From the NCBI GenBank assembly GCA_902788175.1, contig CADAJF010000013.1, positions 1-55,152 of the forward strand: a DNA stretch of 55,152 nt. The letters are read 5' to 3'. The notes below the pieces were generated by a model. That model searched no databases and was not told the origin of the DNA. It saw only the letters and a program-made list of their open reading frames with translations. The translations under genes and the position numbers were made by a program. This stretch comes from an uncultured Bacteroidia bacterium. Its GTDB lineage: Bacteria > Bacteroidota > Bacteroidia > Bacteroidales > UBA932. Shown in pieces: positions 4,259 through 54,507 of the stretch; within the stretch, counting starts at the first letter, position 1, and each line of letters opens with the position of its first letter.

Positions 4259-4296
4259 ATTCCTTGCGTTAATACAATAATTCTAGTGTCAAGAGA

Positions 4297-4304: not shown

Positions 4305-4357
4305 GTAAATTCCCGCAAAAAAAGAAAGGCCGCTTGGGCAAATGCATGCGCCCTGCA

Positions 4358-4389
4358 TTTGGAGCGGTCTGGAAAATTCCTTAGATTTG
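4358..4389 (+). promoter_or_regulatory. Consensus promoter of the PUL regulator gene
   Basis: TTTG at 4358-4361, a 20-bp spacer, then TAGATTTG at 4382-4389: a full match to the Bacteroidota promoter TTTG-N19-21-TAnnTTTG. The start codon at 4412 follows after 22 nt. The regulator therefore has its own promoter, separate from the glycan genes it probably controls. Confidence 0.75.
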
Positions 4390-4411
4390 CAGAATACGGG
4401 ACTATTAGAGT

Positions 4412-20167: not shown

Positions 20168-20871
20168 GCGAGAAGAAGGAAAACACAGGGACGTTTGCCG
20201 ATACTTACCGGCGCAGCCTTCCACTGCGCCACGGTGCGGGTGCGGATGAAGGCGTCCGGGCAGGTGAGGTTGGCGGCGATGCAAAGCCGTGTTCCAGGCC
20301 CCAGGCACTGGAGCATATCCGCCAGAAGGGCGTCGTTGCGGTAAGGGGTTTCTATCAGGATTTGCGTCTGGAGGGCAGTGGCAGAGCGTTTCTCCAGGGC
20401 TTTCAGGGCGTTGCGGCGTTCATCGGCCTTGGCGGGGATGTAGCCCACAAAGGCGAAGGACTGGCCGTTGAGACCGGAGCTCATCAGGGCCAGCATCAGC
20501 GACGAAGGGCCCACCAGGGGCACCACTTCAATCCCGTGCCTGTGACAAAGGGCTACCAGCAGGGAACCGGGGTCCGCCACGGCGGGAAGCCCCGCCTCCG
20601 AAAGCAGGCCCACGGAGCGCCCGCCGTTGAAAAGCTGCAGGTATTCCTCCACCTGGGCGGGAGGGGTATGCTCGTTGAGCTGGTGGAATTCCAGCCCCTC
20701 TATATGGCCTTTGAGGCCCGCCTGTGAAAGAAAGCGGCGGGCGGTGCGCACTTCCTCCACCACAAAGCACTGCAGGCTGGGCAGCAGCTCCAGAACCGGT
20801 GCAGGCAGTACATCGGCGGGGTTCCCTTCACCCAGCGGGGTGGGGATCAGGTATAGTTTTCCGTAGCTCAT
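20164..20871 (-). CDS. RsmI-like SAM-dependent methyltransferase (tetrapyrrole methylase fold)
   Basis: A 235-residue protein of the tetrapyrrole-methylase superfamily, closest to RsmI, the 16S rRNA C1402 2'-O-methyltransferase. Recognisable parts: the N-terminal strand KLYLIPTPLGEGNPADVLP, LLSEAGLPAVADPGSLLV (binding-loop region), VVPLVGPSSLMLALMSSG and FAFVGYIPAKADERRNAL, and the ETPYRNDALLADML segment. It lacks the GNLEDIT-type opening of classical RsmI, replaced by GEGNPADVL, so it is probably the divergent RsmI paralogue found in Bacteroidota, whose target is uncertain. It overlaps tamB upstream and mtaB downstream by 4 bases each. Confidence 0.8.
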   Translation of the reverse strand: MSYGKLYLIPTPLGEGNPADVLPAPVLELLPSLQCFVVEEVRTARRFLSQAGLKGHIEGLEFHQLNEHTPPAQVEEYLQLFNGGRSVGLLSEAGLPAVADPGSLLVALCHRHGIEVVPLVGPSSLMLALMSSGLNGQSFAFVGYIPAKADERRNALKALEKRSATALQTQILIETPYRNDALLADMLQCLGPGTRLCIAANLTCPDAFIRTRTVAQWKAAPVSIGKRPCVFLLLA

Positions 20872-23800: not shown

Positions 23801-25415
23801 CGTTGCGGGTGTTGCCGGAGAGGTTGAAGGTGCCCTGGAAGAGGAAATTGAGGTTGGGGTCTGCGGCGATGATGCGGCCGTCGAAGGCATCTCCGCGGTA
23901 GGTACCCACGGCGCTGATGCCGGAGTAGTCATAGTCCATGGCGCGCAGGCGGCTTATCTGCAGGGTGTCCAGGCGCACCTGCATGTCCCCGCCGCGCGGG
24001 AAGGTGGCTTCCGCTACCGTACGCATGGTCAGCGGCCCCAGGGAGTTGTTGCCCAGGATGCGCCCCAGGTCCAGGTTCTCCGTCCTTATCTTTCCGCCGA
24101 TGACGATAGGAGCGGGCTTGCCCACAGCTCCTGTGAGGTTGACATCGGCCTGGGCAGCGCCTACGGAGGAGGTAATGTCTCCCTGCACGTGCAAGTGGTT
24201 CAACTGCCCGCTGATCCTGCCCTGGAAGTGGAAATCCTCTCCTTTGGCCATATCGGAGAGGTCCAGTCCGGTGCCCGGTGCCCAGGCCTCTACGAAATCT
24301 CCCAGGCGGTCCAGGCCAAAATCCAGCTCCCGTACCTGGAAGTCCATCTGGGTGAGGCTGGTGTCCGGAAGGCCTTTCATGCGGCCGCTGAGGGCGGCGC
24401 GAACGCCGTTCTCCCGGTCTTCGACGAGCAGGTTGTCCAGTTTGAAGTCGTTGACGTAGCCATGCAGCTGTCCCTGGAGGTTCCCGCTGAAACTGATGCC
24501 TTCCAGACCGTCGCTGAAGCAGCGGAGGTTGGGGAGGCTGAGGTAGGAGCCGGGGCGGATATCGGCGTCCAGCCAGATACGGTCCACGAAATCTCCGTAG
24601 TCGCTCATGGGGCCGTCCATGATGAAGTGGTTCAGGTACACGTCGCTGTCCCCGACCGCCAGGCGAAGCCCCTCTATGCTGGCCTTTTCTTCCCCTACAT
24701 CCACCTTTTTGGCCGACACCTCCCGTGCCGTGAAACCGGTGGTTTTTTCGCGGAAACTGAGGCGCTCCACGGTGCCGGTGACATGGCTGTCCGCGACCTC
24801 CAGCTGGGTGGCCAGCAGTTCCTGGACGTGGACGCCGAAGTTGTTCCAATCCACTTCCCCTTCACCGTAACTGCGGCCTTCCAGGGCCATTTCTTCCGCG
24901 CTGTCCGGATTGGCCATGCTAAAGTGGAAGTCTTTGATTTCCAGCAGTCTTGCGCTTAGAAGCTTGCCCCATTGCGTTTTCTCCCCGGAGGATTCTTTGT
25001 CCTCGATGCCCAGGACGCGGTAGATGTTCATGGTGGAACCGTCCGGGGGTTCGAAGGTCAGGTTGAAACGCCCGCCGTCCAGTTTGAGGCGCCTGACGTG
25101 GACACCGTCTTTTCTGAAAAGCCCGCTAAGGGAGAATTTGGCGGTAAGATTGCGCACGTACGCTACCGTGTCCATGCCTTCCACGTAGGGGTTGGGATCT
25201 TTCAGGAGGACGTCTTCCAGCACCAGGGCGTCGAAGGGACGGACAGTGAGCCGGCCCACAGAAACATCTGCGGGCAGGCTTTTTTCCAGCCTTCCGGTGA
25301 CCATCCGGGCCAGTGCCGTCTGCACCTTGGGGGACTGGACCACCACCATCCCGGCAAGCAGCAGCAGGAGGAGAAAGCCCAGGACCCAGGCCAGTATTTT
25401 GAGAAAACGTCTCAC
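20868..25415 (-). CDS. tamB: TamB-like translocation/assembly protein (AsmA/DUF490)
   Basis: A giant 1515-residue envelope protein. One N-terminal membrane anchor (about residues 4-28, FLKILAWVLGFLLLLLLAG), then an AsmA-like region (TGRLEKSLPADVSVGRL) and a very long repetitive beta-strand body, ending in a TamB/DUF490 C-terminal domain (about 1150-1460, with GSGTIELEYKRDNFGMGG, NLVTRKFTIQDGSAIRF and DMGLNYATTQTGSNIFDVAL). Proteins of this class span the periplasm and help outer-membrane protein assembly or lipid transport. The start is a GTG at 25415, directly after a promoter. It heads a four-gene chain of 4-base overlaps. Bacteroidota lack an obvious TamA partner next to it, and none is seen here. 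Confidence 0.88.
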   Translation of the reverse strand: MRRFLKILAWVLGFLLLLLLAGMVVVQSPKVQTALARMVTGRLEKSLPADVSVGRLTVRPFDALVLEDVLLKDPNPYVEGMDTVAYVRNLTAKFSLSGLFRKDGVHVRRLKLDGGRFNLTFEPPDGSTMNIYRVLGIEDKESSGEKTQWGKLLSARLLEIKDFHFSMANPDSAEEMALEGRSYGEGEVDWNNFGVHVQELLATQLEVADSHVTGTVERLSFREKTTGFTAREVSAKKVDVGEEKASIEGLRLAVGDSDVYLNHFIMDGPMSDYGDFVDRIWLDADIRPGSYLSLPNLRCFSDGLEGISFSGNLQGQLHGYVNDFKLDNLLVEDRENGVRAALSGRMKGLPDTSLTQMDFQVRELDFGLDRLGDFVEAWAPGTGLDLSDMAKGEDFHFQGRISGQLNHLHVQGDITSSVGAAQADVNLTGAVGKPAPIVIGGKIRTENLDLGRILGNNSLGPLTMRTVAEATFPRGGDMQVRLDTLQISRLRAMDYDYSGISAVGTYRGDAFDGRIIAADPNLNFLFQGTFNLSGNTRNAQYRFFASLGYADLHALHLDSRERSKVSFQASSNFIRTDKQDLLGDITLSGVSLESDTGHHQIGDVLIRSHSNDDVNRISIESSFLEGSFVGDAGPGTFISDLKALVIGRDLPALLEEEVQPWSGAGYDLTLKVKKAQDLLSFLVPGLYVERNTTLTLKVTPQDSLLTASLRSGRLAYEDKFIKDLKFSLNNASGVQNASITGGQISLSGAQILASDITLFADDNQFGIGYTFDNGEEMDTHAQLYLSGELSRDQEGLLVSARTLPSNLYYKGNGWGLSSEEISYRGGELRIGNFLARHNDETLLVQGGYSPTRPDTLSVRMEKFDIGLLNTLGGDLPTIEGHATGQAMLISPTEPTMGLLVSVTCDSTYVAGERMGQLQLSSVWDEPNQRFNASVRNQLDGKKNLDVEAFYQPKSRAVHASARLDRLNLGYAAPFLSSLFYQFGGGLSGQVALDGTLDKFHLSSQDLRIEEGLLTLDYTRVPYRIEGPLELNDEGLFFRKVSLTDGLGGKGNIDGSILLGGFKDIGLDTHVQITGMKVLDLPRGVNNLMYGTAVASGRADITGSLSKILLNINASTSGPGDLHLTLGSSSDGSSREMLTFTEADTQAEEDPYEVMMAAATQEDSQGTDLEVKLRIRATQDMQVNIDVDESSLNASGSGTIELEYKRDNFGMGGDYNISQGSFLFSAMNLVTRKFTIQDGSAIRFNGDVWDTDLDVKGLYTTKASLSGLIADETAVSRRTVNCGINIKGRLSNPEVNFSIDVPDLNPATQAQVDGALNTVDKVQKQFVYLLLAGNFLPAEESGITSSGSDALFSNMSSIMSGQINNIFQKLDIPLDMGLNYATTQTGSNIFDVALSTQLFNNRVIVNGTVGNKQMLGGTSTNEVAGDMDIEVKLNRSGSLRMKLFTHSADQYTSYLDNSQRHGGGISFQRDFNTFRELFRSLFAPSQARENASRQQAADAARSVVLEVEPDGKLTRK

Positions 25416-25435: not shown

Positions 25436-25463
25436 CAAAAGTAGCAATTTATTGCTACCTTTG
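25436..25463. promoter_or_regulatory. Palindromic divergent promoter, tamB / tsaD
   Basis: Two -7 boxes face outward: TACTTTTG on the minus strand (25443 down to 25436) for tamB and TACCTTTG on the plus strand (25456-25463) for tsaD, 12 bp apart. The whole 28-bp segment is a palindrome with 13-bp arms, one mismatch and a TT centre; the core GTAGCAAT-TT-ATTGCTAC is perfect. Leaders are 20 nt to the tamB GTG and 22 nt to the favoured tsaD ATG. Clear -33 elements are missing. Confidence 0.65.
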
Positions 25464-25485
25464 CAATTGATTTATGCACAAAAGC

Positions 25486-26508
25486 ATGGCAGACTATATT
25501 CTGGGCATAGAATCCTCCTGCGACGACACCTCGGCGGCTGTCATCGCAGACGGCGTGCTGCTCTCGAATGTGATAGCCTCTCAGCAGGTCCACAAGGACT
25601 TTGGCGGCGTAGTGCCGGAGCTGGCATCCCGGGCGCATGAAAAGAATATCGTCCCGGTTGTGTCGGAGGCCCTGAAAAGGGCGGGTATATCGGCCCGGGA
25701 ACTGACGGCCATTGCTTTTACGCGCGGGCCGGGCCTGCTGGGCTCGCTGCTGGTGGGCACTTCTTTTGCCAAGGCGCTTTCCCTGTCGCTGGACATTCCG
25801 CTGGTGATGGTGAACCACCTGCAGGGGCATGTGCTGGCAGGTTTTATCCGGCAGCCGGACGTGCCTGTGCGGGAACCTTCCTTCCCCTATCTTTGCCTGC
25901 TGGTTTCCGGCGGCAATTCCCAGATTGTGCGCGTGAACGGGCCGCTCTCCTATGAAATCCTGGGCCAGACCATCGACGACGCCGTGGGAGAGGCCTTCGA
26001 CAAATGCTCCAAAATGCTGGGGCTGGGTTATCCCGGCGGTCCCGTCATAGACAGGCTGGCCCGGCAGGGCAATCCGGAGCGTTTCCATTTTGCCAAGCCC
26101 AATATTCCGGGGCTGGACTACAGTTTCAGCGGCGTTAAAACCTCGCTTTTGTACTTTGTGAGGGATCAGATGGCCCAGGACCCGGATTTTCTGGAAAAGA
26201 ACAAGGAGGACCTCTGCGCCAGCTTCCAGAAAACCCTCATAGACGTTCTCATGGGAAAACTGATCCGCGCAGCCAAGGAAACCCGCATCCGGGAAATCAC
26301 CATCGGCGGCGGGGTGTCGGCCAACAGCGGCCTGCGGGAAAGGATCGTGGCGGAAGGGGAGAAGCGCCACTGGAACACCTACCTGCCGGAATTCAAGTTT
26401 ACCACGGACAATGCCGCCATGATAGCCATTGCCGGCTGGTTCCAGTACAAGGCGGGCATCCGCACCCCGCTGGATGTGGCCCCCGTTTCCCGTTTGGCAG
26501 ATTTTTAA
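25486..26508 (+). CDS. tsaD: tRNA N6-threonylcarbamoyladenosine transferase TsaD
   Basis: Catalytic subunit that transfers threonylcarbamoyl to A37 of ANN-decoding tRNAs (t6A). It has 340 residues from the ATG at 25486 (MADYILGIESSCDDTS), which matches the family N-terminus; an ATG 12 bases earlier would add MHKS and lies only 10 nt from the -7 box. Metal-binding His111 and His115 are in NHLQGH; other landmarks are GGVVPELASR, ITRGPGLLGSL-like TRGPGLLGSLLVG, LLVSGGNSQIV, GGGVSANSGLR and TDNAAM. Its 3' end overlaps the convergent FAD gene by 4 bases. It supplies the substrate of MtaB and TcdA, both encoded nearby. Confidence 0.96.
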   Translation: MADYILGIESSCDDTSAAVIADGVLLSNVIASQQVHKDFGGVVPELASRAHEKNIVPVVSEALKRAGISARELTAIAFTRGPGLLGSLLVGTSFAKALSLSLDIPLVMVNHLQGHVLAGFIRQPDVPVREPSFPYLCLLVSGGNSQIVRVNGPLSYEILGQTIDDAVGEAFDKCSKMLGLGYPGGPVIDRLARQGNPERFHFAKPNIPGLDYSFSGVKTSLLYFVRDQMAQDPDFLEKNKEDLCASFQKTLIDVLMGKLIRAAKETRIREITIGGGVSANSGLRERIVAEGEKRHWNTYLPEFKFTTDNAAMIAIAGWFQYKAGIRTPLDVAPVSRLADF

Positions 26509-28052
26509 AGGGCAGCCGCCTGGGCGCACTGGATGCCGTCCAAGGCCGACGACACGATGCCCCCGGCATAACCGGCACCTTCCCCGCAAGGGTAGAGGCC
26601 GGGCACGTCCAGGTGCTCCAGCGTCTGAGGGTTCCGGGGCAGCCGAACGGGCGAAGAAGTGCGGGATTCCACACCCAGCAGCAGGGCATCGTTGGTGTAA
26701 TAGCCCCGCATGGAGCGCTCTACCTGCGGAAATACCTTTCTAAGCCGCGAAGCCACATGCTCCGGCAGCAATTCATGCAGCGGGGCCGATACCACCCCGG
26801 GGTGGTAGGAAGTCTTGGGTAAGTCCTTGGAAACCAAGCCTCTGCAAAAGTCTTTCATGCGCTGGCCAGGAGCCGTGAAAGGATGCCTGGCGCCATGCTC
26901 CCGGGCGTAACGGTACATGGCCCGTTCTACGTCCCGCTGGAAATCCATGAGGGCGAAGGGACCGGAGTAGCCGGCAGGCTGGTCTCCGGGTTCTATCTGC
27001 ACCACCACGCCGGCGTTGGCCCATTTGGAATTGCGCGCGGCGTTGGACATGCCGTTGAGCACCACGGTGTCCGGCTCCGTGGAAGAGGGGACCAGGATGC
27101 CGCCGGGGCACATGCAGAAAGAGAAGACGCCCCGTCCATCCACCTGCTGTACAAAGGCGTACTCTGCCGTGGGCATAAACGGCTGGTACTTACCGTGATA
27201 GCGGATTTGATTCAGGAGCCACTGGGGGTGTTCCACCCGTACGCCCATAGCAAAGCCCTTGGCCTCCAGCGCCCAGCCCCTGGCCTGGAAAAGTTCATAG
27301 ATATCCCGCGCCGAATGTCCGGTAGCCAGAATGACCCGATTGGCCCTGTAAACACTTGTCCCGCAGTGCACTTCAAACGCCCTGTCCGGTCCTTTCCGGA
27401 CGATGTCCGTCACGCGCGAGTCAAAGTGGTACTCCCCGCCATGCTCCTCAATGCAGCGGCGGATGTTTTTCACCACCTCCGGCAGGCGGTCCGTGCCAAT
27501 ATGCGGGTGCGCGTCGATGAGGATGTCCGGGTGCGCGCCGAAAGCCACCAGCTGGTGCAGCACCTCCCGGATATCGCCCCGTTTGGAGGAGCGGGTAAAG
27601 AGTTTTCCGTCCGAGAAAGCCCCGGCGCCGCCCTCCCCGTAGCAATAATTGGAATCCGGATGCAGGACGCCTTCTACCGAGAGCCGCGCCATGTCCACCT
27701 TACGCCGCTCCACGTCTTTTCCGCGCTCCAGCACAATGGGACGGCGCCCCAGCTGCAGCAGCTTGAGGGCGGCAAACAGGCCGGCCGGCCCGGCACCCAC
27801 CACAATCACGGGCTCTGCCCCGTGAACGTCCTGGTAGGGCGCAACGCGGTAAGGCTCAAAAGCTTCCCCTTCCCTGTAGGCCTGAACGCGGTAGCGGTAC
27901 AGGATGTCCTGCCGGGCGTCTATGCTGCGGCGCACAACCTCCACCCGTCCCACTTTTTCCGGCCTCACGCCCAAGGCTTTGGCCGCAGCCTCCTTCAGCT
28001 GTGCCTCCGTGAGCTCCTTGCCTATGCGCAAGGCTAACTCGAATTCTTTCAT
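26505..28052 (-). CDS. Uncharacterised FAD-dependent dehydrogenase (COG2509-like)
   Basis: A 515-residue cytoplasmic flavoprotein. Residues 1-75 form a small N-terminal domain. A dinucleotide-binding motif VVGAGPAGLFAAL lies at about 84-96, followed by ERGKDVERRKVD and a conserved block NYCYGEGGAGAFSDGKLFTR, then VILATGHSARDIYELF and the C-terminal FAD contact LYPCGEGAGYAGGIVSSALD. This pattern belongs to widespread uncharacterised FAD dehydrogenases. The substrate is unknown. It is the second gene of an operon with the ROK protein (4-nt gap) and overlaps tsaD by 4 bases tail to tail. Confidence 0.88.
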   Translation of the reverse strand: MKEFELALRIGKELTEAQLKEAAAKALGVRPEKVGRVEVVRRSIDARQDILYRYRVQAYREGEAFEPYRVAPYQDVHGAEPVIVVGAGPAGLFAALKLLQLGRRPIVLERGKDVERRKVDMARLSVEGVLHPDSNYCYGEGGAGAFSDGKLFTRSSKRGDIREVLHQLVAFGAHPDILIDAHPHIGTDRLPEVVKNIRRCIEEHGGEYHFDSRVTDIVRKGPDRAFEVHCGTSVYRANRVILATGHSARDIYELFQARGWALEAKGFAMGVRVEHPQWLLNQIRYHGKYQPFMPTAEYAFVQQVDGRGVFSFCMCPGGILVPSSTEPDTVVLNGMSNAARNSKWANAGVVVQIEPGDQPAGYSGPFALMDFQRDVERAMYRYAREHGARHPFTAPGQRMKDFCRGLVSKDLPKTSYHPGVVSAPLHELLPEHVASRLRKVFPQVERSMRGYYTNDALLLGVESRTSSPVRLPRNPQTLEHLDVPGLYPCGEGAGYAGGIVSSALDGIQCAQAAAL

Positions 28053-28056
28053 CGCG

Positions 28057-29172
28057 TTAACTGGCGCAGCTGTCCAACTGGGCTAATGCAAAGTCATAGG
28101 CGCCCACGGAGATGGCCGTAGAGGTGCCAATCTTGTCGATAATCACGCCAATGCGTTTCTGAGGATCGTAGGTGACGGTTTTTTCCGTGCCGTAAATCTT
28201 GAGCTCGCGGGCATCGCCTTTGGCAAAGGCGGCGAATTCTGCTTCGTCGTCCAGGTTGTACACCTTCATCTGCAGCCGCTGCAGGGTATCTCCGGAGAGG
28301 GTACGGACAGTGCCGCGCATCTCTTCCAGCAGCGCCGGCATGAAGAATTTGGCCGATGCCGATATACCGCCGCCAATGACCACCAGTCCGTCCATCAGCT
28401 GGGCGGCCTGGGCGATGGCCTGGCCGGCAACACGTCCCAGCTGCTCGAAGGCGGCCAGGGCGGCCTTGCGGTCTCCGGGGCGCTGGCCATCGGCGATCTC
28501 ATAGATGTCCTTGGGGGTGAGGGAAGCATCCTGCACGCCGGATTGCTCTGCGTACACGCGCTTGACGGCACGGATGGCGATGCTGTCCTCCAGGATGACG
28601 CCGCTGATCTGCGGATTGGGCAGGCAGTAGGTTTCCACGCAGGAATTGTCCCCGCGGTTGAGTTCCCCGCCAATGACGCAGCCAATGCCGCAGCCCGTAC
28701 CGAAGGTGTAGCCTATGAGGTTGCGGAAACGCTTGGCGCTGCCCGCTGCGGCCAGTTTCTCGTTCACCTGGGGCAGGGCGCCGCTGAGGGCTTCTCCGTA
28801 AGCGAAGAGGTCTCCGTCGTTGTTGATGAACACGGGGATACCGAACACTTCCTTCAGGTAAGGGCCCAGCGCCACGCCTTCACGGAAAGAAGGGAAGTTG
28901 GGCAGATAGCCGCCGATAATGCCGGCGGGATAGTCCGCCGGGCCGGGGAAGGCAAAGCTGATGGCTTCCGGCTTAACGTCTCCCAGCAGGTTGATGACGG
29001 TTTTGAAGCCGGTGACCATGCTTTGCAGGCAAAGGTCCAGGTTGTTGGCGTTGGAGGGGAGGGTGATGGTTTCCAGGATGAATTCCTCTCCCCGCATGGC
29101 ATTGAAACGCAGCGAGTTGCCGCCCGCATCGAGGGTGAGCACCACCCGCTTGTCATTGATGTATTTTCCCAT
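28057..29172 (-). CDS. ROK-family protein, probable sugar kinase
   Basis: A 371-residue protein of the ROK/hexokinase fold. Visible: the phosphate-binding start VVLTLDAGGNSLRFNA, AFPGPADYPAG, the catalytic-Asp region INNDGDLFAYGE, GYTFGTGCGIGCVIGGE, and the adenosine-binding LVVIGGGISASAKFF. The usual ROK zinc motif CxCGxxGCxE is not seen; the region reads NRGDNSCVETYC, so the metal site is altered or absent. There is no N-terminal HTH, so it is not a ROK repressor. A TATTTTTG box lies 34 nt upstream. Substrate unknown; an N-acetylmannosamine- or glucose-type sugar is a guess only. Confidence 0.8.
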   Translation of the reverse strand: MGKYINDKRVVLTLDAGGNSLRFNAMRGEEFILETITLPSNANNLDLCLQSMVTGFKTVINLLGDVKPEAISFAFPGPADYPAGIIGGYLPNFPSFREGVALGPYLKEVFGIPVFINNDGDLFAYGEALSGALPQVNEKLAAAGSAKRFRNLIGYTFGTGCGIGCVIGGELNRGDNSCVETYCLPNPQISGVILEDSIAIRAVKRVYAEQSGVQDASLTPKDIYEIADGQRPGDRKAALAAFEQLGRVAGQAIAQAAQLMDGLVVIGGGISASAKFFMPALLEEMRGTVRTLSGDTLQRLQMKVYNLDDEAEFAAFAKGDARELKIYGTEKTVTYDPQKRIGVIIDKIGTSTAISVGAYDFALAQLDSCAS

Positions 29173-29206
29173 AGGTATGCAGTTTTGTTTTATTCAGGTA
29201 TTAGTG

Positions 29207-29234
29207 CAAAAATACACAAAATTTCTTACCTTTG
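29207..29234. promoter_or_regulatory. Divergent promoter pair, ROK gene / S9 peptidase
   Basis: TATTTTTG on the minus strand (29214 down to 29207) faces the ROK gene and TACCTTTG on the plus strand (29227-29234) faces the peptidase. The two boxes point outward and are 12 bp apart. The leader is 34 nt to the ROK start and 44 nt to the peptidase start. -33 elements are not clear. Confidence 0.6.
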
Positions 29235-29278
29235 CGCATCAAGCTCCCAAAAAGCCTTGAACAAAGCACTACAACTAT

Positions 29279-31492
29279 ATGAAAATCCAACTTTTTGCGA
29301 TGGCGGCCACGGTGATGGCCCTCATCGCCTGCAACAGCAACCGTGAGATGACTCCCCAGGAAGGTTACATCGGCCCCTCCGATATCCAGATTACGGACGG
29401 GCACATGAGCCCGGAGGTTCTCCTCTCGCTGGGCCGCGTCAGTGATCCCCAGCTGTCCCCGGATGCCAAAACCATCCTTTACGGCGTAAGCTACACCTCC
29501 ATCCAGGAAAACCGCAGCGTGCGCAACCTTTTCACCATCCCGGTAGAAGGCGGAGACCCCGTGCAGCTCACCATGGACGGCAAAAGCATATCCGCCGCTC
29601 GCTGGAGCCCGGACGGGGAGGTCATCTACTTCCTCCAGGGCGGCCAGCTGTACAAGGCTCCTTACCGGGAAGGCCGGCTGGGAGCGCGTGAGCAGCTCAC
29701 GGACATCCCCTCCGGCGTGGAGGATTATGCCCTTTCCCCGGATGCTTCCCAGCTGATGTACGTTACTTCCGTGCACAGCGCCGTAGAGGTCCCCTCAGAC
29801 TCGGACCCCATGCTGGACAAGGCCCAGGCCTATGCCACGGAAGACCTGATGTACCGCCACTGGGACCACTGGATGACGGAAATTCCCCACACCTATGTGG
29901 CTGCGCTGGGTAACGGCATCATCAAGGAAGGCGTGGATATCCTGGGCGGGCCGGAGTTCCTGTACCAGCTGCCCAACGGCCCCTTCCCGGACATCGCAGA
30001 CCTTGCCTGGAGCCCGGACGGCCGCTATATCGCCTACGCCTGTAAAAAGCTGGAAGGCAAGGAGTATGCCTTCTCCACCAATACCTGCATCTATATCTAT
30101 TGCCCCCTCACCGGAGAAACCACCCAGGTCACCTTCGAGGGCGGCTATGACACGCATCCTGTCTGGAGCCCGGACGGCAGCCGCCTGGCCTGGCTCTCGA
30201 TGGAGCGGGACGGTTATGAAGCCGACAAAGTGCGCCTGATGGTGGGAGACGTCCACTATGACGCCGTTCCCGAAGGACAGGCCGCCGGCCCTATGGTGGA
30301 CAATATCCGTGACCTTACGGCCGCCTTCAAGTACAACGCAGACGGCCCCGTATGGGCCGAAGACGGCAAGTCCCTCTACTTCGCTGCCCTGGCAGAGGGG
30401 GTGGAAGGCATCTTCAACGTGGTGCCGGAGCAGGAACCCGTGATTGTGCGCCTCACCGCAGACAATCTCTGGTTTGACTTTGGTTCTCCCTTTGGCGTGC
30501 TGCAGGACGGCACCCTCCTGACCACCTTCACTTCCATGGATTTCCCCACGGAACTGGTGGCCGTCAATGACAATGCCATCCGCCAGATCACCTATGAGAA
30601 CCAGCACATCCTGGACCAGCTGGACAAGCACGAGACAGAGGCCCGCTGGCTCAAGACCGTGGACGGCCAGGAGATGCTTACGTGGGTGCTGTTCCCGCCC
30701 AAGTTTGACCCCGCCAAGACCTACCCGGCCATCGAAATCTGCCTGGGAGGCCCCCAGGGCACCCTTTCCCAGGGCTGGAGCTACCGCTGGAATTACCTCA
30801 TGATGTGCCATCAGGGCTATGTGGTGGTGCTGCCCAACCGGCGCGGTACCACGGCCTTCGGCCAGCCCTGGTGCGAGCAAATCTCCGGTGACTATGTGGG
30901 CCTGAACATGCAGGATTACCTTACCGCGGCGCGGAATATCAAGGCAGAGCCTTATGTGAGCGGCGTGGCTGCCTGCGGCGCCTCATATGGCGGTTTCAGC
31001 GTGTACTACCTGGCCGGGATCCACAAGGACGTGTACGACTGCTTCATCGCCCATGCCGGCATTTTCAACGAGGAGCACATGTACATGACCACCGAGGAAA
31101 TGTGGTTCCCCAACTGGGACAACGGCGGCCTGCATGAGTACGCTTACGAAGAAGGGGAAACCGGCCCCGGCGGCGATGGCATCACCTTCGGCGGCATCAA
31201 GCAGGGCGGTTCCCCCTGGAGCAACCTGCCCAAGGCCAAGCGCCACTACGACAACTCCCCGCACAAGCTGGTGCGTAACTGGAATACGCCCATTCTTTGC
31301 ATGCACGGCGGCATGGACTTCCGTGTCCCCGTAGATGAAGGCATGGCCGCCTTCAACGCCGCCCAGATGATGGGTGTCCCTTCCAAGCTCATTGTCTTCC
31401 CCGGAGAAAACCACTGGATCCTGAAGCCGCAGAATGCCCTCTACTGGCACCGCAGCTACTTTGACTGGCTGGACCGCTGGATGAAGGACTAA
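29279..31492 (+). CDS. S9-family prolyl-oligopeptidase-like peptidase, lipoprotein
   Basis: A 737-residue lipoprotein (ALIAC, Cys18) with an N-terminal beta-propeller (repeats such as LSPDAKTILYG, WSPDGEVIYF, WSPDGRYIAYA, WSPDGSRLAWL) and a C-terminal alpha/beta hydrolase domain. The catalytic triad is Ser569 (GASYGG), Asp680 (MDFRVP) and His712 (GENHW); spacing and order are normal for S9. It resembles periplasmic dipeptidyl-peptidases such as DPP5 of oral Bacteroidota, releasing dipeptides for uptake; the exact specificity is not readable. It converges on recG with a 4-base overlap of stop codons. Confidence 0.92.
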   Translation: MKIQLFAMAATVMALIACNSNREMTPQEGYIGPSDIQITDGHMSPEVLLSLGRVSDPQLSPDAKTILYGVSYTSIQENRSVRNLFTIPVEGGDPVQLTMDGKSISAARWSPDGEVIYFLQGGQLYKAPYREGRLGAREQLTDIPSGVEDYALSPDASQLMYVTSVHSAVEVPSDSDPMLDKAQAYATEDLMYRHWDHWMTEIPHTYVAALGNGIIKEGVDILGGPEFLYQLPNGPFPDIADLAWSPDGRYIAYACKKLEGKEYAFSTNTCIYIYCPLTGETTQVTFEGGYDTHPVWSPDGSRLAWLSMERDGYEADKVRLMVGDVHYDAVPEGQAAGPMVDNIRDLTAAFKYNADGPVWAEDGKSLYFAALAEGVEGIFNVVPEQEPVIVRLTADNLWFDFGSPFGVLQDGTLLTTFTSMDFPTELVAVNDNAIRQITYENQHILDQLDKHETEARWLKTVDGQEMLTWVLFPPKFDPAKTYPAIEICLGGPQGTLSQGWSYRWNYLMMCHQGYVVVLPNRRGTTAFGQPWCEQISGDYVGLNMQDYLTAARNIKAEPYVSGVAACGASYGGFSVYYLAGIHKDVYDCFIAHAGIFNEEHMYMTTEEMWFPNWDNGGLHEYAYEEGETGPGGDGITFGGIKQGGSPWSNLPKAKRHYDNSPHKLVRNWNTPILCMHGGMDFRVPVDEGMAAFNAAQMMGVPSKLIVFPGENHWILKPQNALYWHRSYFDWLDRWMKD

Positions 31493-33618
31493 GAGATCCG
31501 CGAATAATCTTTGGAGACGTAACGGTCTTTTTTAAGCTCGGCTGCCAGGATGGCATTGCCGGGCTTTTCCAATGTGGGATCCTGGTCCAGGATGTGCTGG
31601 GCGTAGGCGCGGGCATCGGAGAGGATGAGGCCGTCCTTGGCCAGCGAGGCTATGTTCAGGGAGATGGGAAGGCCGCTTTGCATGGTGCCTTCCAGGTCCC
31701 CGGGGCCGCGCATCTTGAGGTCTTCCTCTGCCAGTTCGAAGCCGTTTTCCGTGGCGCAGAGAAGGTCCAGGCGCTTTTGCGACTCCTTGGATACCTTCAC
31801 GCCTTTCATGAGGATGCAGAAGGAGCTTTCTGCGCCCCGTCCTACGCGGCCGCGCAGCTGGTGCAGCTGGCTAAGGCCAAAACGTTCTGCGCTCTCGATC
31901 ACCATCACGGATGCGTTGGGGACATCTACGCCCACCTCGATGACGGTGGTGGATACCAGGATATGGGCCCTGCCGGCCACAAAGGCGTCCATGTTGAAGG
32001 CTTTTTCCTGGGGCGTCTGCTTCCCGTGCACGATAGCCACCTTGTAATCCGGCAGCGGGAAGGCCTTGACAATTTCCTCGTAGCCCAGTTCCAGGTTTTT
32101 GTAGTCCAGTTTCTCGCTTTCGAAGATGAGCGGGTACACGATGAAGGCCTGGCGGCCCTTGGCTATCTGCTCCCGGATAAAGTTGTGCATGGCGTGCCGT
32201 TTCCCTTCTCCCACGCACAGCGTCTGGATGGGTTTGCGGCCGGGGGGCATCTCGTCGATGACGGAAACGTCCAGGTCTCCGTACAGGGTCATGGCCAGGG
32301 TGCGGGGGATGGGCGTGGCTGTCATGACCAGCACATGCGGCGGTGTCCCTTGCCACCCTTTGTTCCAAAGCCGGGCGCGCTGCTCTACGCCAAAGCGGTG
32401 CTGCTCATCTACGATGGCCAGCCCCAGAGCCTTGAAATGCACCGTATCTTCAATGAGGGCATGCGTTCCTATCAGTACGCCTATGCTTCCGTCCTGCAGC
32501 CCGGCATGGATTTCCCGCCGGGCGGCGGCGCCGGTGTTCCCGGTAAGGAGCGCAACCCCTACGCCAGTTGGCTGCAGATACTTGGAGACATTGGCAAAGT
32601 GCTGCTGGGCAAGTACTTCCGTAGGGGCCATCAGGCAGGCCTGGTAACCGTTTCCCACGGCAATCAGGGCCGACAGCACCGCCACCATGGTTTTTCCGGA
32701 GCCGACATCTCCCTGCAGGAGGCGGTTCATCTGGTGGCCGCTGCGCATGTCTTCCCGGATTTCCCGGATTACGCGCTTCTGGGCGCCGGTAAGTTCATAG
32801 GGAAGGGCCTTGTAGCAGGCGTTGAAGGCTTCTCCCACCACCGGCATCTTCAAGCCCACGGCATTGCGGCTGCGGACAAACTTTTGCTTCAGGAGCGACA
32901 GCTGCAGGAGGAAAAGTTCCTCGAATTTGAGCCTGTAAGTGGCCTTGGCCAGCGCTGCCTTGTCCAGCGGGAAGTGGATTTGGCGCAGGGCATAACTGAG
33001 GGGCACCAGCCCTTTTTCTTTCAGGATATACTCCGGCAGGCTTTCCTGCAGCCCGGGCAAAATCCCCTCCAGTGCAGTGCCGATAAGCTTGACCATCACC
33101 TTCCCGGTGATACCGGAGGTTTTCAGTTTCTCGGTGGAGGTATAGACGCCGGTGAGCACGCCGGTAGTGGCGGCATCCGGGGCATCCACCTCCGGGTGTA
33201 CCATGTTCAGGCGACTGCCAAATACCGCAGGCTTGCCGAAAAAGATGAAGGTGCTGCCGGGCCGAAGCCGTGCGTGCATCCATTTGCAGCCTTTGAAAAA
33301 GACCATCTCCATCTCTCCGCTCTGGTCTGCCACCAGGGCGCTGAGACGGTTGACCATATTGTATTTGATCTGCTCCGGAGGAAGCTCCGCGCCGTTTTTG
33401 GCGAACAGGCGCACCCGCATGACCGTGGCCCGCACCTGCACCTGGGCGAGTTCCGGCTGCAAGTCCGCGATGCGCACGATGCTGCTGCGGTCTATGTAAC
33501 GGAAGGGAAAGGTGCGCAACAGGTCTCCTACCGTGCTGATGCCCAGTTCGGATTCCAGCAGCTGCGCCCGTTTGGGCCCTACCCCCGGCAAATACTGTAT
33601 GGCCGTATCCAGTGTCAT
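31489..33618 (-). CDS. recG: ATP-dependent DNA helicase RecG
   Basis: Helicase that remodels stalled replication forks and Holliday junctions. It has 709 residues. The N-terminal wedge/OB domain begins at LPGVGPKRAQLL, the Walker A motif GDVGSGKT is at 303-310, the DEQH box reads VDEQHRFGVEQRARLW, MTATPIPRTLAMTLYG follows, and the helicase C part includes VSTTVIEVGVDVPNASVM and QLHQLRGRVGRG. I chose ATG at 33618 over a TTG 9 bases upstream, which lies within the -7 box. The ATG is 6 nt from TATATTTG, so the mRNA has practically no leader. Confidence 0.97.
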   Translation of the reverse strand: MTLDTAIQYLPGVGPKRAQLLESELGISTVGDLLRTFPFRYIDRSSIVRIADLQPELAQVQVRATVMRVRLFAKNGAELPPEQIKYNMVNRLSALVADQSGEMEMVFFKGCKWMHARLRPGSTFIFFGKPAVFGSRLNMVHPEVDAPDAATTGVLTGVYTSTEKLKTSGITGKVMVKLIGTALEGILPGLQESLPEYILKEKGLVPLSYALRQIHFPLDKAALAKATYRLKFEELFLLQLSLLKQKFVRSRNAVGLKMPVVGEAFNACYKALPYELTGAQKRVIREIREDMRSGHQMNRLLQGDVGSGKTMVAVLSALIAVGNGYQACLMAPTEVLAQQHFANVSKYLQPTGVGVALLTGNTGAAARREIHAGLQDGSIGVLIGTHALIEDTVHFKALGLAIVDEQHRFGVEQRARLWNKGWQGTPPHVLVMTATPIPRTLAMTLYGDLDVSVIDEMPPGRKPIQTLCVGEGKRHAMHNFIREQIAKGRQAFIVYPLIFESEKLDYKNLELGYEEIVKAFPLPDYKVAIVHGKQTPQEKAFNMDAFVAGRAHILVSTTVIEVGVDVPNASVMVIESAERFGLSQLHQLRGRVGRGAESSFCILMKGVKVSKESQKRLDLLCATENGFELAEEDLKMRGPGDLEGTMQSGLPISLNIASLAKDGLILSDARAYAQHILDQDPTLEKPGNAILAAELKKDRYVSKDYSRIS

Positions 33619-33624
33619 GCACCA

Positions 33625-33651
33625 CAAATATATGAAAAAAAGCTATATTTG
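33625..33651. promoter_or_regulatory. Divergent promoter pair, recG / lactonase
   Basis: Identical TATATTTG boxes on opposite strands face outward: minus strand 33632 down to 33625 for recG, plus strand 33644-33651 for the lactonase gene. They are 11 bp apart. Start codons follow at 6 nt (recG) and 4 nt (lactonase). No TTTG -33 element is found for either. The whole intergenic gap is 37 bp. Confidence 0.65.
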
Positions 33652-33655
33652 CGCT

Positions 33656-34723
33656 ATGAAACGGGTATTTATTCTGCTGGCCATCCTGGCGTCGGTGTGC
33701 GCCTGCGGAAGGCGTGACGTACACACTTTGTTTGTAGGAACCTATTCGGACGGCTTCTACGCGTTTGACTTCGACCTTGCAAAAGGGGAAATCGTAGCGG
33801 CCGGGGAGGAGTTTGGCGCAGTGGCTAAGGCCCCTATGCCCAACCCCTCGTTTCTGGCCGTCGAAGGCAATAAGGTGTATGCGGTGAGCGAGATGCCGGA
33901 TTCATCGGCCGCGGTTTATGCCTGGCGCTATGGCGGCGGGGGCTTCGAACTGGTGGGAAAACAGCCCAGCGGCCTGCCGGAGGGCGGGGAAGACCCCTGC
34001 TATGTGTCCACCAACGGGCAGCTGCTGGCGCTGGCCAATTACGGCGGCGGCACCCTCTCCGTTTTCAAGCTGCGCAGCGATGGCAGCATAGCCCCGCTGG
34101 ATTCGCTGATTTACAGCAGCGCGGGCGGTCCGGACCTGGAGCGCCAGGGCAGCCCGCATGTGCACTGCGCCCTCTTTACGCCGGATAACAAACTGCTTTT
34201 CAGCGAGTTCAGCGCAGATGCCATCGGCGCGGTGGACATCACTCCTGCCGGTGTCAGCCATTACAGGAGAGTGGCCCAGCTGCCCGCAGACTTCGGCCCG
34301 CGGCACCTTCTCCTTAAAGGTAATACGCTCTATTGTATAGGAGAACTCTCCGGCGACGTGGCCGTTTACACCTACCCTGAAATGCAGCTGCGTCAGGTAG
34401 TGAAGGCCGATGAGTCCGGCGCCCGCGGCGCGGCAGACATCCACCTGAGTCCGGACGGGAAGTTCCTCTATGCCAGCCTGCGCCTGAGGCAGGACGGCCT
34501 GGCTGTCTTCCGGGTGCAGCCGGACGGAAACCTGGTCAAATGCGGCTACCAGCTCACCGGGACGCATCCCCGCAACTTCACGGTGCTGGAAAAATGGGTG
34601 CTGGTCGCCTGCCGGGACACCGGCCAGATAGAAGTCTATGCCCGGAATACAGAAAACGGCAGCCTGCAGGATACAGGCCGCCGCATAAACGTTCCCAAAC
34701 CGGTATTTGTCCTTAGCCTTTAA
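33656..34723 (+). CDS. Lactonase-family beta-propeller protein (6-phosphogluconolactonase-like)
   Basis: A 355-residue seven-bladed propeller of the YbhE/Pgl lactonase family with a lipoprotein-type signal (ASVCACG, Cys17 favoured), so it acts in the periplasm or on the membrane, not in the cytosolic pentose-phosphate pathway. Landmarks: TLFVGTYSDGFYAFDFD, VSTNGQLLALANYGGGTLSV, RQGSPHVHCALFTPDN, DFGPRHLLL, LSPDGKFLYASLRLR and GTHPRNFTV. The substrate is unknown; lipoprotein members may open sugar lactones outside the cytoplasm. It starts only 4 nt after the -7 box. Its 3' end overlaps pdxA on the other strand by 11 bases. Confidence 0.85.
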   Translation: MKRVFILLAILASVCACGRRDVHTLFVGTYSDGFYAFDFDLAKGEIVAAGEEFGAVAKAPMPNPSFLAVEGNKVYAVSEMPDSSAAVYAWRYGGGGFELVGKQPSGLPEGGEDPCYVSTNGQLLALANYGGGTLSVFKLRSDGSIAPLDSLIYSSAGGPDLERQGSPHVHCALFTPDNKLLFSEFSADAIGAVDITPAGVSHYRRVAQLPADFGPRHLLLKGNTLYCIGELSGDVAVYTYPEMQLRQVVKADESGARGAADIHLSPDGKFLYASLRLRQDGLAVFRVQPDGNLVKCGYQLTGTHPRNFTVLEKWVLVACRDTGQIEVYARNTENGSLQDTGRRINVPKPVFVLSL

Positions 34724-35750
34724 GCCTTCCTTCCTGCAGGGAGTCGTACTGGAGACGCTTGCGGAAGATGTCGATGGCCGTGTAGATGGCGCTCATCATG
34801 GAATGGGGGTCTGCTTCGTCGCGGCCGGCCATTTCGAAGGCTGTGCCGTGGTCCGGGGAGGTGCGGACTACCGGCAGCCCTGCGGTGAAATTGACTCCGT
34901 CGGCGAAAGCGAGGGCCTTGAAGGGAGCCAGGCCCTGGTCATGGTACATGGCAAGGGTGGCATCGTAGCGGCTGTAATTGCCCAGGCCGAAGAATCCGTC
35001 GGGGGAGTAGGGACCAAATGCCTGGATACCTTCCTGCCGGGCCTGCTGGATGGCCGGCAGGATGATGTTCTGCTCTTCGTCTCCGAGCAGGCCGCCGTCC
35101 CCGCAGTGGGGATTCAGGCCCAGGACGGCAATCTTGGGATCCGGGATGCCGAAATCCCTTTCCAGCGAAGCCTTCATGATGCGCAGTTTCCCCAGGATGT
35201 TTTCCTGGGAAATGCGGCCGGGGACCTCTCGCAGGGGGATGTGGCCCGTTACTACACCCACTTTGAGCTGCTCGCTGACCATGAACATGGTAACGTCCCT
35301 GGCATCGAATTGCTGCTGGAGATAATCGGTGTGTCCCGTATGGGAAAAGCCCTCCGAGTTCATTGCCCGTTTGTTGATGGGCCCCGTGACCAGCACGTCA
35401 ATCTGGCCTTCCTTGAGGTCCCGTACGGCAACCTCCAGCGCAGTGATGGCGTTCTGGGCGCTCTCCGGGGTGCTTTGGCCGGGCTCTGCGTAGATGTTGT
35501 CCGGCAGGCAGTTGACCAGGTTGATTTTGCGCATCCGGGCATCGGCCGCGGAGGAAATCACGTTCACATCCATGGGGCCGATGTTGTGGATGGTTTTGCG
35601 GTAGAAGCCCATGAGCTTGGACGAGCCGTAAACCACCGGCGTGAAGCTGTCCAGGATGCGCTCGTCTGCCAGGGATTTGATAATTACTTCGTATCCTATT
35701 CCGTTGCTGTCCCCTTGGGTAATGCCAACGACTAATTTTGGGAGTGCCAT
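34713..35750 (-). CDS. pdxA: 4-hydroxythreonine-4-phosphate dehydrogenase PdxA
   Basis: NAD-dependent oxidative decarboxylase of the DXP-dependent vitamin B6 pathway. It has 345 residues. Metal and substrate motifs: GITQGDSNGIGYEV at the N-terminus, VTGPINKRA, GHTDYLQQQF, GLNPHCGDGG, MYHDQGLAPFKALAF and VRTSPDHGTAFEMAG. The ATG at 35750 (MALPKLVVGITQGD) is preferred to a TTG nine bases upstream. It lies 70 nt downstream of rnhA on the same strand, with a small repeat element in between, so it may be co-transcribed. No clear -7 box was seen directly upstream. Confidence 0.95.
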   Translation of the reverse strand: MALPKLVVGITQGDSNGIGYEVIIKSLADERILDSFTPVVYGSSKLMGFYRKTIHNIGPMDVNVISSAADARMRKINLVNCLPDNIYAEPGQSTPESAQNAITALEVAVRDLKEGQIDVLVTGPINKRAMNSEGFSHTGHTDYLQQQFDARDVTMFMVSEQLKVGVVTGHIPLREVPGRISQENILGKLRIMKASLERDFGIPDPKIAVLGLNPHCGDGGLLGDEEQNIILPAIQQARQEGIQAFGPYSPDGFFGLGNYSRYDATLAMYHDQGLAPFKALAFADGVNFTAGLPVVRTSPDHGTAFEMAGRDEADPHSMMSAIYTAIDIFRKRLQYDSLQEGRLKG

Positions 35751-35788
35751 AAAATTCAACTGTATCTTTTCAATTCAACTTTTATAAA

Positions 35789-35887
35789 TATCGCACAGGC
35801 CTGCCCTGCGACATTTCACGTTACCCCCTCCCGAAACCCCTCCCCTCGGGGGAGGGACTTAAAACGAGGGGTTGAGTCTCTGCGATA
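35789..35887. repeat. Palindromic element overlapping the rnhA 3' end
   Basis: Outer arms TATCGCACAG (35789-35798) and CTCTGCGATA (35878-35887) are reverse complements with one mismatch. Inside is a GC hairpin of CCCTCCCC (35838-35845) and GGGGAGGG (35849-35856) with a 3-base loop, and an alternative pairing of AACCCCTC (35835-35842) with GAGGGGTT (35866-35873). The element encodes the last residues of RNase HI (ending PSPEGRGFGRG) and its stop, then extends into the gap before pdxA. Arg/Gly/Pro-Ser tails of this kind come from small GC-rich palindromic repeats in many bacteria. Confidence 0.65.
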
Positions 35888-36342
35888 TACCCTATATCTT
35901 CCGGGAGGGAGGGCTGATGGTACGCTTCTACGGCCAGGTGGTCGCAGCGCTCGTTTTCCGGGTGGCCGGCGTGGCCTTTTATCCAGTGGAAGGCTACGCG
36001 GTGGCGCTGGTAGGCGGCATCGAAGCGGAGCCACAGGTCCACATTCTTTTTGCCCTTGAAGCCCGTGCGCTTCCACTTTTCCAGCCAGCCCTCGTTGAGC
36101 GCCTTCACTACATAGGAGGAGTCGCTCCAGACGTGGACTTCTGCGTTTTCCCAGCGTATCTGTTCCAGGCCCAGGATGACGGCCAGCAGTTCCATACGGT
36201 TGTTGGTGGTGCAGGCGAAACCGCCCGAGAGCTCTTTTTCGTAGGTGCCGCAGCGAAGCACCACCCCATAGCCGCCCGGGCCGGGGTTGCCGCTGGCTGC
36301 TCCGTCCGTGTACAGGAAGATGGGTGGTTTCTTGTCCGTCAT
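35821..36342 (-). CDS. rnhA: Ribonuclease HI with repeat-encoded C-terminal tail
   Basis: Cuts RNA in RNA-DNA hybrids (primer and R-loop removal). It has 173 residues. The four acidic active-site residues are Asp13 (YTDGAASGNPG), Glu51 (NNRMELLA), Asp74 (VWSDSSYVV) and Asp134 (ERCDHLAV), with His124 in IKGHAGHPENE. All are present. After about residue 151 the protein continues as ETQPLVLSPSPEGRGFGRG, which is encoded by a palindromic element and has no counterpart in normal RNase HI. The ATG at 36342 is 6 nt from a consensus promoter. The enzyme should be active because the added tail lies beyond the fold. Confidence 0.95.
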   Translation of the reverse strand: MTDKKPPIFLYTDGAASGNPGPGGYGVVLRCGTYEKELSGGFACTTNNRMELLAVILGLEQIRWENAEVHVWSDSSYVVKALNEGWLEKWKRTGFKGKKNVDLWLRFDAAYQRHRVAFHWIKGHAGHPENERCDHLAVEAYHQPSLPEDIGYIAETQPLVLSPSPEGRGFGRG

Positions 36343-36348
36343 ATCATG

Positions 36349-36380
36349 CAAAAGTACGGATTTTATGTTATCTTTGCAAA
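36349..36380. promoter_or_regulatory. Interlocked divergent promoters, rnhA / gmhA
   Basis: On the minus strand TTTG (36380 down to 36377), a 20-bp spacer and TACTTTTG (36356 down to 36349) form a full promoter for rnhA, whose ATG follows after 6 nt. On the plus strand TATCTTTG (36369-36376) serves gmhA, whose ATG also follows after 6 nt. The two boxes are 12 bp apart and the rnhA -33 element sits right after the gmhA box, so both promoters occupy the same 40-bp gap. Confidence 0.72.
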
Positions 36381-36382
36381 CT

Positions 36383-36979
36383 ATGGAAAGTACGATTGCA
36401 AGAGTAAAAGGGCAGGTCGGGGAATCGGCCCGCGTGAAGGAGGCCCTCCTGCAGGATGCAGGTACCCTGGAAACCATTGCCCATGTGTCCGGCCTTCTGG
36501 TGGAAACATACCGGCGGGGCGGTAAAAGCCTTTGGGCCGGGAACGGCGGCTCTGCGGCGGATGCCCAGCACATGGCGGCGGAACTGGTGAACAAATTCCG
36601 CCTTAACCGTTCCGGCCTGCCGGCCATGGCCCTTACGGTGGACACCTCCATCCTCACGGCTATCGGCAACGACTATGGCTATGAGCAGGTGTTTGCCCGC
36701 CAGATAGAGGCTTGCGGTGCGCCCGGAGACGTTTTTGTGGGCATTTCCACTTCCGGGGGATCGGCCAATCTCCTTGCCGCCCTGGAGGTTTGCCGGAAAA
36801 AAGGGATTGTCACGGTGGCGCTTGTGGGGGCGGCCCCTTGCCCCATGGACGCGTATGACCACGTGATCCACATTCCCTCCACCGACACCCCCCGCATCCA
36901 GGAGTGCCAGACCCTGATCGGCCATATTTTCTGCGATGAGGTGGAGCAGGCCCTTTTCGGCGCACGGCCACAGAAATAA
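36383..36979 (+). CDS. gmhA: Sedoheptulose-7-phosphate isomerase GmhA
   Basis: SIS-domain enzyme converting sedoheptulose 7-phosphate to D-glycero-D-manno-heptose 7-phosphate, the first step toward heptose of LPS or surface glycans. It has 198 residues. Landmarks: SLWAGNGGSAADAQHMAAEL, the metal/active-site segment TAIGNDYGYEQVFARQIEA, GISTSGGSANLLAALE and IPSTDTPRIQECQTLIGHI. Length and motifs match GmhA and not a longer SIS sugar isomerase. No other heptose genes lie beside it. A short AT-rich stretch follows the stop, without a strong terminator. Confidence 0.92.
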   Translation: MESTIARVKGQVGESARVKEALLQDAGTLETIAHVSGLLVETYRRGGKSLWAGNGGSAADAQHMAAELVNKFRLNRSGLPAMALTVDTSILTAIGNDYGYEQVFARQIEACGAPGDVFVGISTSGGSANLLAALEVCRKKGIVTVALVGAAPCPMDAYDHVIHIPSTDTPRIQECQTLIGHIFCDEVEQALFGARPQK

Positions 36980-54459: not shown

Positions 54460-54507
54460 CAAATATATGAATTTTTTTTCTTTTTTCCTTGTTTTTTTTT
54501 ATCTTTG
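54460..54507. promoter_or_regulatory. Divergent -7 boxes, hypothetical gene / DUF4332 gene
   Basis: TATATTTG on the minus strand (54467 down to 54460) faces the hypothetical gene; TATCTTTG on the plus strand (54500-54507) faces the DUF4332 gene. The boxes are 32 bp apart, separated by a T-rich stretch. Leaders are 19 and 41 nt. This pair does not share the 11-12 bp spacing of the four closer pairs. Confidence 0.55.

Follow-up and report, generated by a model that had tools for sequence, protein, structure and literature searches.

Back-to-back -7 boxes with stepped spacing between divergent genes of gut Bacteroidales, probably interlocked promoters

In the accessible portions of PMC6847099 and PMC7366714, the promoters of the primary sigma factor of the Bacteroidota (sigma-ABfr; -33 TTTG and -7 TAnnTTTG) are described as one-way promoters. 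In F. johnsoniae they have AT-rich motifs at positions -18 and -28 relative to the start; counted from the -7 element these fall on successive helical turns, and they are more pronounced than any -33 motif, which is weak (PMC6847099, in the part of the text available to us). Here we describe pairs of such -7 boxes that stand back to back and face outward between divergent genes, starting from a 55,152-nucleotide stretch of an uncultured Bacteroidia bacterium (contig CADAJF010000013.1 of assembly GCA_902788175.1; hereafter the window). In a group of gut Bacteroidales with compact genomes, back-to-back box pairs at divergent genes are real and widespread. We consider that these sites are probably interlocked divergent promoters of the sigma-ABfr type, in which each -7 box would at the same time be one of the other promoter's helically phased AT motifs.

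Four outward pairs of exact TAnnTTTG matches are present in the window, at 25436-25463, 29207-29234, 33625-33651 and 36349-36376, with 12, 12, 11 and 12 base pairs (bp) between the boxes (hereafter the gap), exactly as claimed in an earlier reading of this DNA made without database searches (the sequence-only reading). All 8 half-sites match the -7 box of sigma-ABfr-type promoters (Table 1). That reading had held chance to be unlikely, and not one of 100 dinucleotide shuffles of the window yielded even one such pair. Its gene names were confirmed by Pfam (TamB/TsaD, ROK/Peptidase_S9, RecG/Lactonase and RNase_H/SIS), our gene finder returned the same number of divergent pairs (six), and the intergenic sizes of 37-106 bp are correct with the start codons used here. 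Gene starts were taken from this simple gene finder or set at the first ATG in the longest open reading frame (ORF), and single genes may be wrong; for the lactonase gene, the gene finder put the start at 33599, versus 33656 used here. The sole other window pair at a gap of up to 60 bp (54460-54507) has a gap of 32, which is another favoured spacing class, and the sixth divergent intergenic region (4259-4411) is without an outward pair at a gap of up to 60 bp. The frequency of four in six holds within the window but is not typical of the genome, as 8 of the 50 divergent intergenic regions called in 455 kilobases (kb), window included, carry a gap 11-13 pair. Three further gap 11-13 pairs in the 455 kb lie outside the divergent regions called by the gene finder. 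Relative to the rest of the genome, the window is a rich draw for these pairs.

When the window's own assembly (G000; 2,089,295 bases, 84.5% complete) and its relatives were scanned for the spacing of outward pairs, as the sequence-only reading had proposed, the distribution was not flat. With the reversed pattern as control, the assembly contains 61 outward pairs at gaps of 0-30 (control 1), including 32 at 11-13 (control 0) and 1 at 14-20 (control 0). Among the 50 pairs listed of these 61, 27 are at 11-13 (17 at 12, 8 at 13 and 2 at 11), and zero are at 8-10, 14 or 16-20. At gaps of 31-60 there are 49 outward pairs versus 4 for the control, and 15 of the 49 are at 32-33. What stands of the fixed spacing originally claimed is a non-chance preference at divergent genes, genome-wide and in relatives; the preferred spacing is not single but stepped, at 2-5, 11-14, 21-24 and 31-34 bp. 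Elsewhere in this assembly, two near-identical pairs of gap 48 with an inner palindrome (G000:C5:8646-8709 and C5:12914-12977) lie 4.3 kb apart and are a duplicated regulatory region.

To describe the gene context, we took 27 distinct sites out of the own genome's 32 gap 11-13 pairs and counted ORFs with an ATG start and at least 80 codons within 250 nucleotides (nt) on both sides, a loose criterion by which single cases may be wrong. An ORF start was found on both sides of 26 of the 27 sites (18 of 20 in genome G010), and in the own genome the distance from box to ORF start is at most 44 nt in 49 of 53 cases. Because the boxes are near an ORF start on both sides, two divergent promoters are the natural reading. 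Likewise, around 80 named TsaD loci and in the window, 93 of the 117 outward pairs with gaps of 0-60 sit in divergent intergenic regions, 16 in co-directional ones and 8 elsewhere, and at gaps of 11-14 the divergent regions hold 39 of 45. The start codon follows the box within 9 nt in 22 of 53 cases at the own genome's gap 11-13 pairs, in 9 of 38 in G010 and in 14 of 87 unpaired promoters, and leaderless mRNAs are therefore predicted (for example, 33625-33656 and 36349-36383). Published shares of leaders under 10 nt are 3.7% in B. thetaiotaomicron (PMC7366714) and, correspondingly, 5.5% in F. psychrophilum (PMC9723704), as given in the accessible text of these papers. The box-to-start distances in the own genome appear two-peaked, at 2-12 and 17-36.

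The same spacing classes were counted in relatives. Across 59 genomes of the family, in which gap 14 was counted in the 14-20 bin and the favoured class is accordingly 11-13, the pairs per gap value net of control were 368 at 11-13, 64 at 14-20, 197 at 21-24, 75 at 25-30 and 188 at 31-34. All 59 genomes have matches at 11-13, the per-gap-value rate exceeds that at 14-20 in 55 of them, and p is below 1e-4 in 34 when each is taken singly. In other families of the order (117 genomes, one per family) the net rates were 192 at 11-13 versus 61 at 14-20, with 87 genomes higher at 11-13 and 28 lower (control 59 and 56); p is below 1e-4 in six of the 117, most strongly in G488 (30 versus 4). In the phylum sample, 188 of 296 genomes have a gap 11-13 match. 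The same class without the order gave 434 matches versus 329 for the control in 70 genomes, of which 41 were higher and 16 lower, and in the other classes of the phylum the excess is absent (401 matches versus 472 control in 223 genomes; 54 higher, 94 lower). The excess is thus of graded strength within the order, small in the rest of the class and absent beyond it, and is not phylum-wide. Two genomes have distributions of their own. In G013 (family f1), unlike its kin, there are 48 outward pairs at 21-24 versus 11 at 11-13, and this excess may be a dispersed repeat. In G488 (family f150; L181-L188, 125 kb) the gaps cluster at 11, 13, 13, 13 and at 35, 36, 37, 37, 39, and the second spacing class may be shifted in this family.

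The tamB/tsaD region was compared across the best 80 TsaD matches among the named genomes, all of which belong to uncultured Bacteroidales or Bacteroidia and, where a source is given, come mostly from rumen, reticulum, omasum or other ruminant material, with some from horse faeces. The 80 loci contain 41 outward pairs at gaps of 11-14 and zero at 6-10 or 15-20, and the inward-facing control yields 2 pairs at any gap of 0-60. Among 81 tsaD loci, 59 were called divergent, 16 co-directional and 6 'far' or at a contig edge. An exact partner box lies within 60 bp in 54 of the 59 divergent loci (25 at 11-14, 12 at 21-24, 8 at 31-34, 7 at 48-49 and 2 others), and none of the sampled loci is at 15-20 or 25-30. 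Of the 16 co-directional loci, 8 retain the tsaD box with at most 1 mismatch, none of these 8 has a partner, and the remaining 8 are without a box to count from. On a TsaD tree of the 59 divergent loci, the class label (six labels, including 'none' and 'other') changes at least 18 times, versus a shuffled mean of 31.1. Within the limits set by the many weak branches of this tree and by the gene calls, the partner box at tamB/tsaD goes with a divergent neighbour, and the spacing is seen to change only in certain steps. In L046, L048, L050, L056, L059 and L063 the likely tsaD box is TAnnTTCG, and the partner, where present, remains CAAAnnTA.

Table 1. Outward box pairs of the window and the genes they flank
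Feature	Position	Strand	Basis or remark
-7-type box TACTTTTG toward tamB	25436..25443	-	exact match
12-bp shared interior, tamB/tsaD pair	25444..25455	.	exact match of flanking boxes
-7-type box TACCTTTG toward tsaD	25456..25463	+	exact match; start codon common to relatives is ATG at 25486
tamB	20868..25415	-	Pfam TamB; GTG start as called, putative
tsaD	25486..26508	+	Pfam TsaD; start inferred from relatives; alternative ORF start 25474
-7-type box TATTTTTG toward ROK gene	29207..29214	-	exact match
12-bp shared interior, ROK/S9 pair	29215..29226	.	exact match of flanking boxes
-7-type box TACCTTTG toward S9 peptidase gene	29227..29234	+	exact match
ROK family gene	28057..29172	-	Pfam
S9 prolyl oligopeptidase family gene	29279..31492	+	Pfam
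-7-type box TATATTTG toward recG, ATG 6 nt downstream	33625..33632	-	exact match
11-bp shared interior, recG/lactonase pair	33633..33643	.	exact match of flanking boxes
-7-type box TATATTTG toward lactonase gene, ATG 4 nt downstream	33644..33651	+	exact match
recG	31489..33618	-	Pfam and gene finder
lactonase-family gene	33656..34723	+	Pfam
-7-type box TACTTTTG toward rnhA, ATG 6 nt downstream	36349..36356	-	only half-site of 8 with TTTG at spacer 19-21
12-bp shared interior, rnhA/gmhA pair	36357..36368	.	exact match of flanking boxes
-7-type box TATCTTTG toward gmhA-like SIS gene, ATG 6 nt downstream	36369..36376	+	exact match
RNase H gene (rnhA)	35821..36342	-	Pfam
SIS-domain (gmhA-like) gene	36383..36979	+	Pfam
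fifth outward pair, gap 32	54460..54507	.	between divergent genes 53979-54392 and 54549-54956

To relate the steps to the single promoter, a base-preference profile was built from 87 of 145 promoters with no exact partner (unpaired promoters) in co-directional intergenic regions, namely those with a box-to-start distance of 0-200. The profile was laid on its inverse at each gap, and the score is the fit of one sequence to both; the observed counts were the 50 pairs listed of the 61 at gaps of 0-30 and the 49 at gaps of 31-60 in the own genome. Peaks of the score are found at 2-5, 12 and 32-33; there is a mild rise at 21-22, and values are low across 14-19, 25-30 and 35-40. At gaps of 6-45 its Spearman correlation with the listed counts is 0.54, a value reached by 0 of 500 column-shuffled profiles. 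The correlation was 0.43 without the -33 region, 0.42 with the spacer alone, 0.21 with the -33 alone and 0.17 when only A+T versus G+C was considered; because each part alone is below the whole profile, a single element was rejected as the cause of the steps. Modelled in this manner, the unpaired promoter predicts the spacing peaks and troughs in broad terms.

In the 87 unpaired promoters, A+T peaks upstream of the box at -4 to -10, at -14 to -19 and, more weakly, at -22 to -28, and the interior of the pairs is AT-rich, with the helix-phased AT-rich spacer of a sigma-ABfr-type promoter. The F. johnsoniae box begins at -12, so that its -18 and -28 motifs become -6 and -16 in the box numbering used here, and the AT stretches of the profile agree with them. 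An opposite -7 box lands on these AT stretches at gaps of about 1-2, 11-13, 21-23 and 31-33, which is why we propose that the promoters are interlocked. The -33 TTTG that the sequence-only reading had placed just outside the other box is not supported. It was expected at a spacer of 19-21, and 1 of the 8 half-sites in the window has it (36349, minus strand, spacer 20), with ATTG in another. Among gap 11-13 pairs, 7 of 178 half-sites, counted from distinct core sequences only, carry TTTG at this spacer, versus 21 of the 87 unpaired promoters.

According to the proposal, the two outward-facing -7 boxes (TAnnTTTG) would each start one gene of the head-to-head pair, and a stepped spacing (2-5, 11-14, 21-24 and 31-34 bp) would follow from the need for one set of base pairs to work in both promoters. 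Upstream of its box, a single promoter has AT-rich stretches at about 6, 16 and, more weakly, 26 bp, spaced by one helical turn. At gaps of 11-13 each -7 box would lie on the second AT stretch of the other promoter, with the AT interior acting as the first for the two alike; with gaps of 21-24 and 31-34 the box would lie one or two helical turns further out. At 14-20 and 25-30, the boxes, the -33 and the AT stretches would clash.

Other explanations of the spacing were weighed against this one. Both promoters might be held on the same face of the helix through bending or upstream contacts, a physical constraint beyond base sharing. The distances between box centres (gap plus 8) are about 10-13, 19-22, 29-32 and 39-42 bp, near whole turns, as such phasing would have it. 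We nevertheless think it unlikely, since superposed unpaired promoters give similar steps and the extra constraint is unneeded; from sequence alone it cannot be separated from base sharing.

The sequence-only reading had called the pairs mutually exclusive, turn-taking promoters, with the spacing selected as a switch that admits polymerase to one side at a time. At gap 12 the predicted start sites are separated by about 37-39 bp, and we infer that one polymerase would sterically exclude the other, as we do any effect of the paired boxes on expression. With starts about 38 bp apart, the footprint of each polymerase would cover the other's box. In E. coli, opposing polymerases cannot co-bind a bidirectional promoter, and strong one-way activation tends to repress the other direction (PMC12825309, accessible portion). 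However, according to the same portion of that paper, five tested E. coli bidirectional promoters were too weak at basal activity to compete. The turn-taking idea is not supported. Exclusion would also apply at any short gap and leaves the under-use of 14-20 and 25-30 unexplained, and tamB/tsaD or recG/lactonase seem to be without an evident need for opposition. Turn-taking of the two genes is possible, and a spacing selected for it strikes us as quite improbable.

Short divergent regions with short leaders could by themselves crowd the boxes together and produce a spacing peak as a by-product; the median over 50 divergent regions is indeed 145.5 bp, and leaders are also short. The re-pairing test bears on this directly. 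From 61 stretches (the window and L081-L140) with 103 divergent intergenic regions, 56 of them with an outward exact pair, 33 of the 56 pairs (regions under 200 bp) were used, and leaders were permuted 5000 times with the region and leader lengths kept. At 11-13, 10 pairs were seen versus 1.1 expected, which 0 of 5000 permutations reached, and at 31-34, 7 were seen versus 1.5 expected, reached in 4 of 5000. Of 31 pairs with a gap between 8 and 37, 28 fall within 11-14, 21-24 or 31-34. Packing alone was rejected on the strength of this test and we hold it to be very improbable; chance was rejected by the reversed-pattern control, the re-pairing and the window shuffles. Finally, that the palindrome CAAAnnTA-N12-TAnnTTTG is the binding site of a regulator rather than two promoters, as near-perfect palindromes at some sites (25436-25463, for example) might suggest, is scarcely credible and was rejected for its variable spacing and gene context, since the arms are 11-13 bp apart within one genome and 11-14, 21-24, 31-34 or 48-49 at one orthologous region, unpaired promoters have the same -7 box as the half-sites, start codons follow within 9 nt in 22 of 53 cases, and a partner is missing from all 8 tsaD boxes whose neighbour is co-directional.

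Several results weigh against the interlocked-promoter proposal itself. We infer the use of both boxes from the box sequence, the gene starts and the predicted start sites. The profile comes from 87 promoters, with wide bootstrap ranges. When sequences with a degenerate partner (up to 2 mismatches, gaps 11-13) were removed, the gap-12 score fell from 5.1 to 2.4, and when those with one at any favoured gap were removed, 22 sequences were left and there was no peak at 12; decayed partner boxes may therefore supply some of the fit. The model score at gap 13 is just 1.7, yet 8 of the 50 listed pairs are there, and at gap 5 it is near that of gap 12, yet 2 pairs were seen versus 17. The 21-24 class did not reach significance on re-pairing (3 pairs, a number reached in 485 of 5000 permutations), nor did the troughs by themselves in this small set, with 1 pair seen at 14-20 (857 of 5000 at or below) and 0 at 25-30 (1135 of 5000). 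Four of the 59 family genomes (G007, G020, G038 and G056) are without the 11-13 excess. A genome of family f33 in the same phylum (G167), with 22 matches versus 2 for the control in the phylum sample, prompted a look at that family, which was dropped because its raw counts are without an 11-13 excess over 14-20 (14 of 40 genomes higher). At tamB/tsaD, much of the TsaD tree is weakly supported, the starred branches alone forcing 6 changes of the 11-14 label and not 14; one clade is at gap 48-49, outside a simple 10-bp series; and the divergent and co-directional calls come from a simple gene finder, by which at least L025 looks miscalled.

We also put forward, tentatively and as somewhat doubtful, a broader view in which the interlocked pair would be a standard start of head-to-head genes across much of the order, with promoter grammar quantising the divergent distance and polymerase competition coupling expression. 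In the smallest case (recG/lactonase and rnhA/gmhA), the whole intergenic region of 37-40 bp would be one pair starting two leaderless mRNAs. Should both boxes be in use, promoter grammar would fix how far apart divergent genes lie in these bacteria, in increments of roughly one helical turn. The pairs would then give a sequence-only readout of the upstream motifs used by the unusual Bacteroidota sigma factor (phased AT motifs rather than the -33), and a large natural set in which to test polymerase competition between neighbouring genes.

The closest described systems are the bidirectional promoters of E. coli, Salmonella and other bacteria, which in the accessible parts of PMC12825309 and PMC10268837 are likewise short, AT-rich and pseudo-symmetrical with starts on opposite strands (here predicted). 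Opposing polymerases cannot bind together there (PMC12825309, same portion), and the same may hold here. The E. coli promoters share a -10 element, and their starts are usually separated by 18 bp, less often by 10 or 23 (both papers, as far as accessible). This geometry of Warman and Grainger, with a shared -10 and starts 18, 10 or 23 bp apart, was not found in our pairs, which consist of two whole, separate boxes set back to back over a span of 27-29 bp, with predicted starts at least about 38 bp from each other. Our pairs also differ from those of E. coli in the sigma class, in a spacing of roughly helical-turn steps and in having an ORF start on both sides at 26 of the 27 own-genome gap 11-13 sites examined. 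With the published sigma-ABfr promoters they share, in each half, the same -7 box and an AT-rich upstream region, whereas those promoters are described as one-way and the -33 TTTG is rare in the pairs (PMC6847099 and PMC7366714, accessible portions). No description of back-to-back Bacteroidota boxes with stepped spacing was found by searches of an open-access library or in the accessible text of PMC6847099, PMC7366714 and PMC9723704, most subscription papers lying outside the scope of the search. Overlapping divergent promoters as such are already known; what appears to be new is the back-to-back arrangement of Bacteroidota boxes and its stepped spacing.

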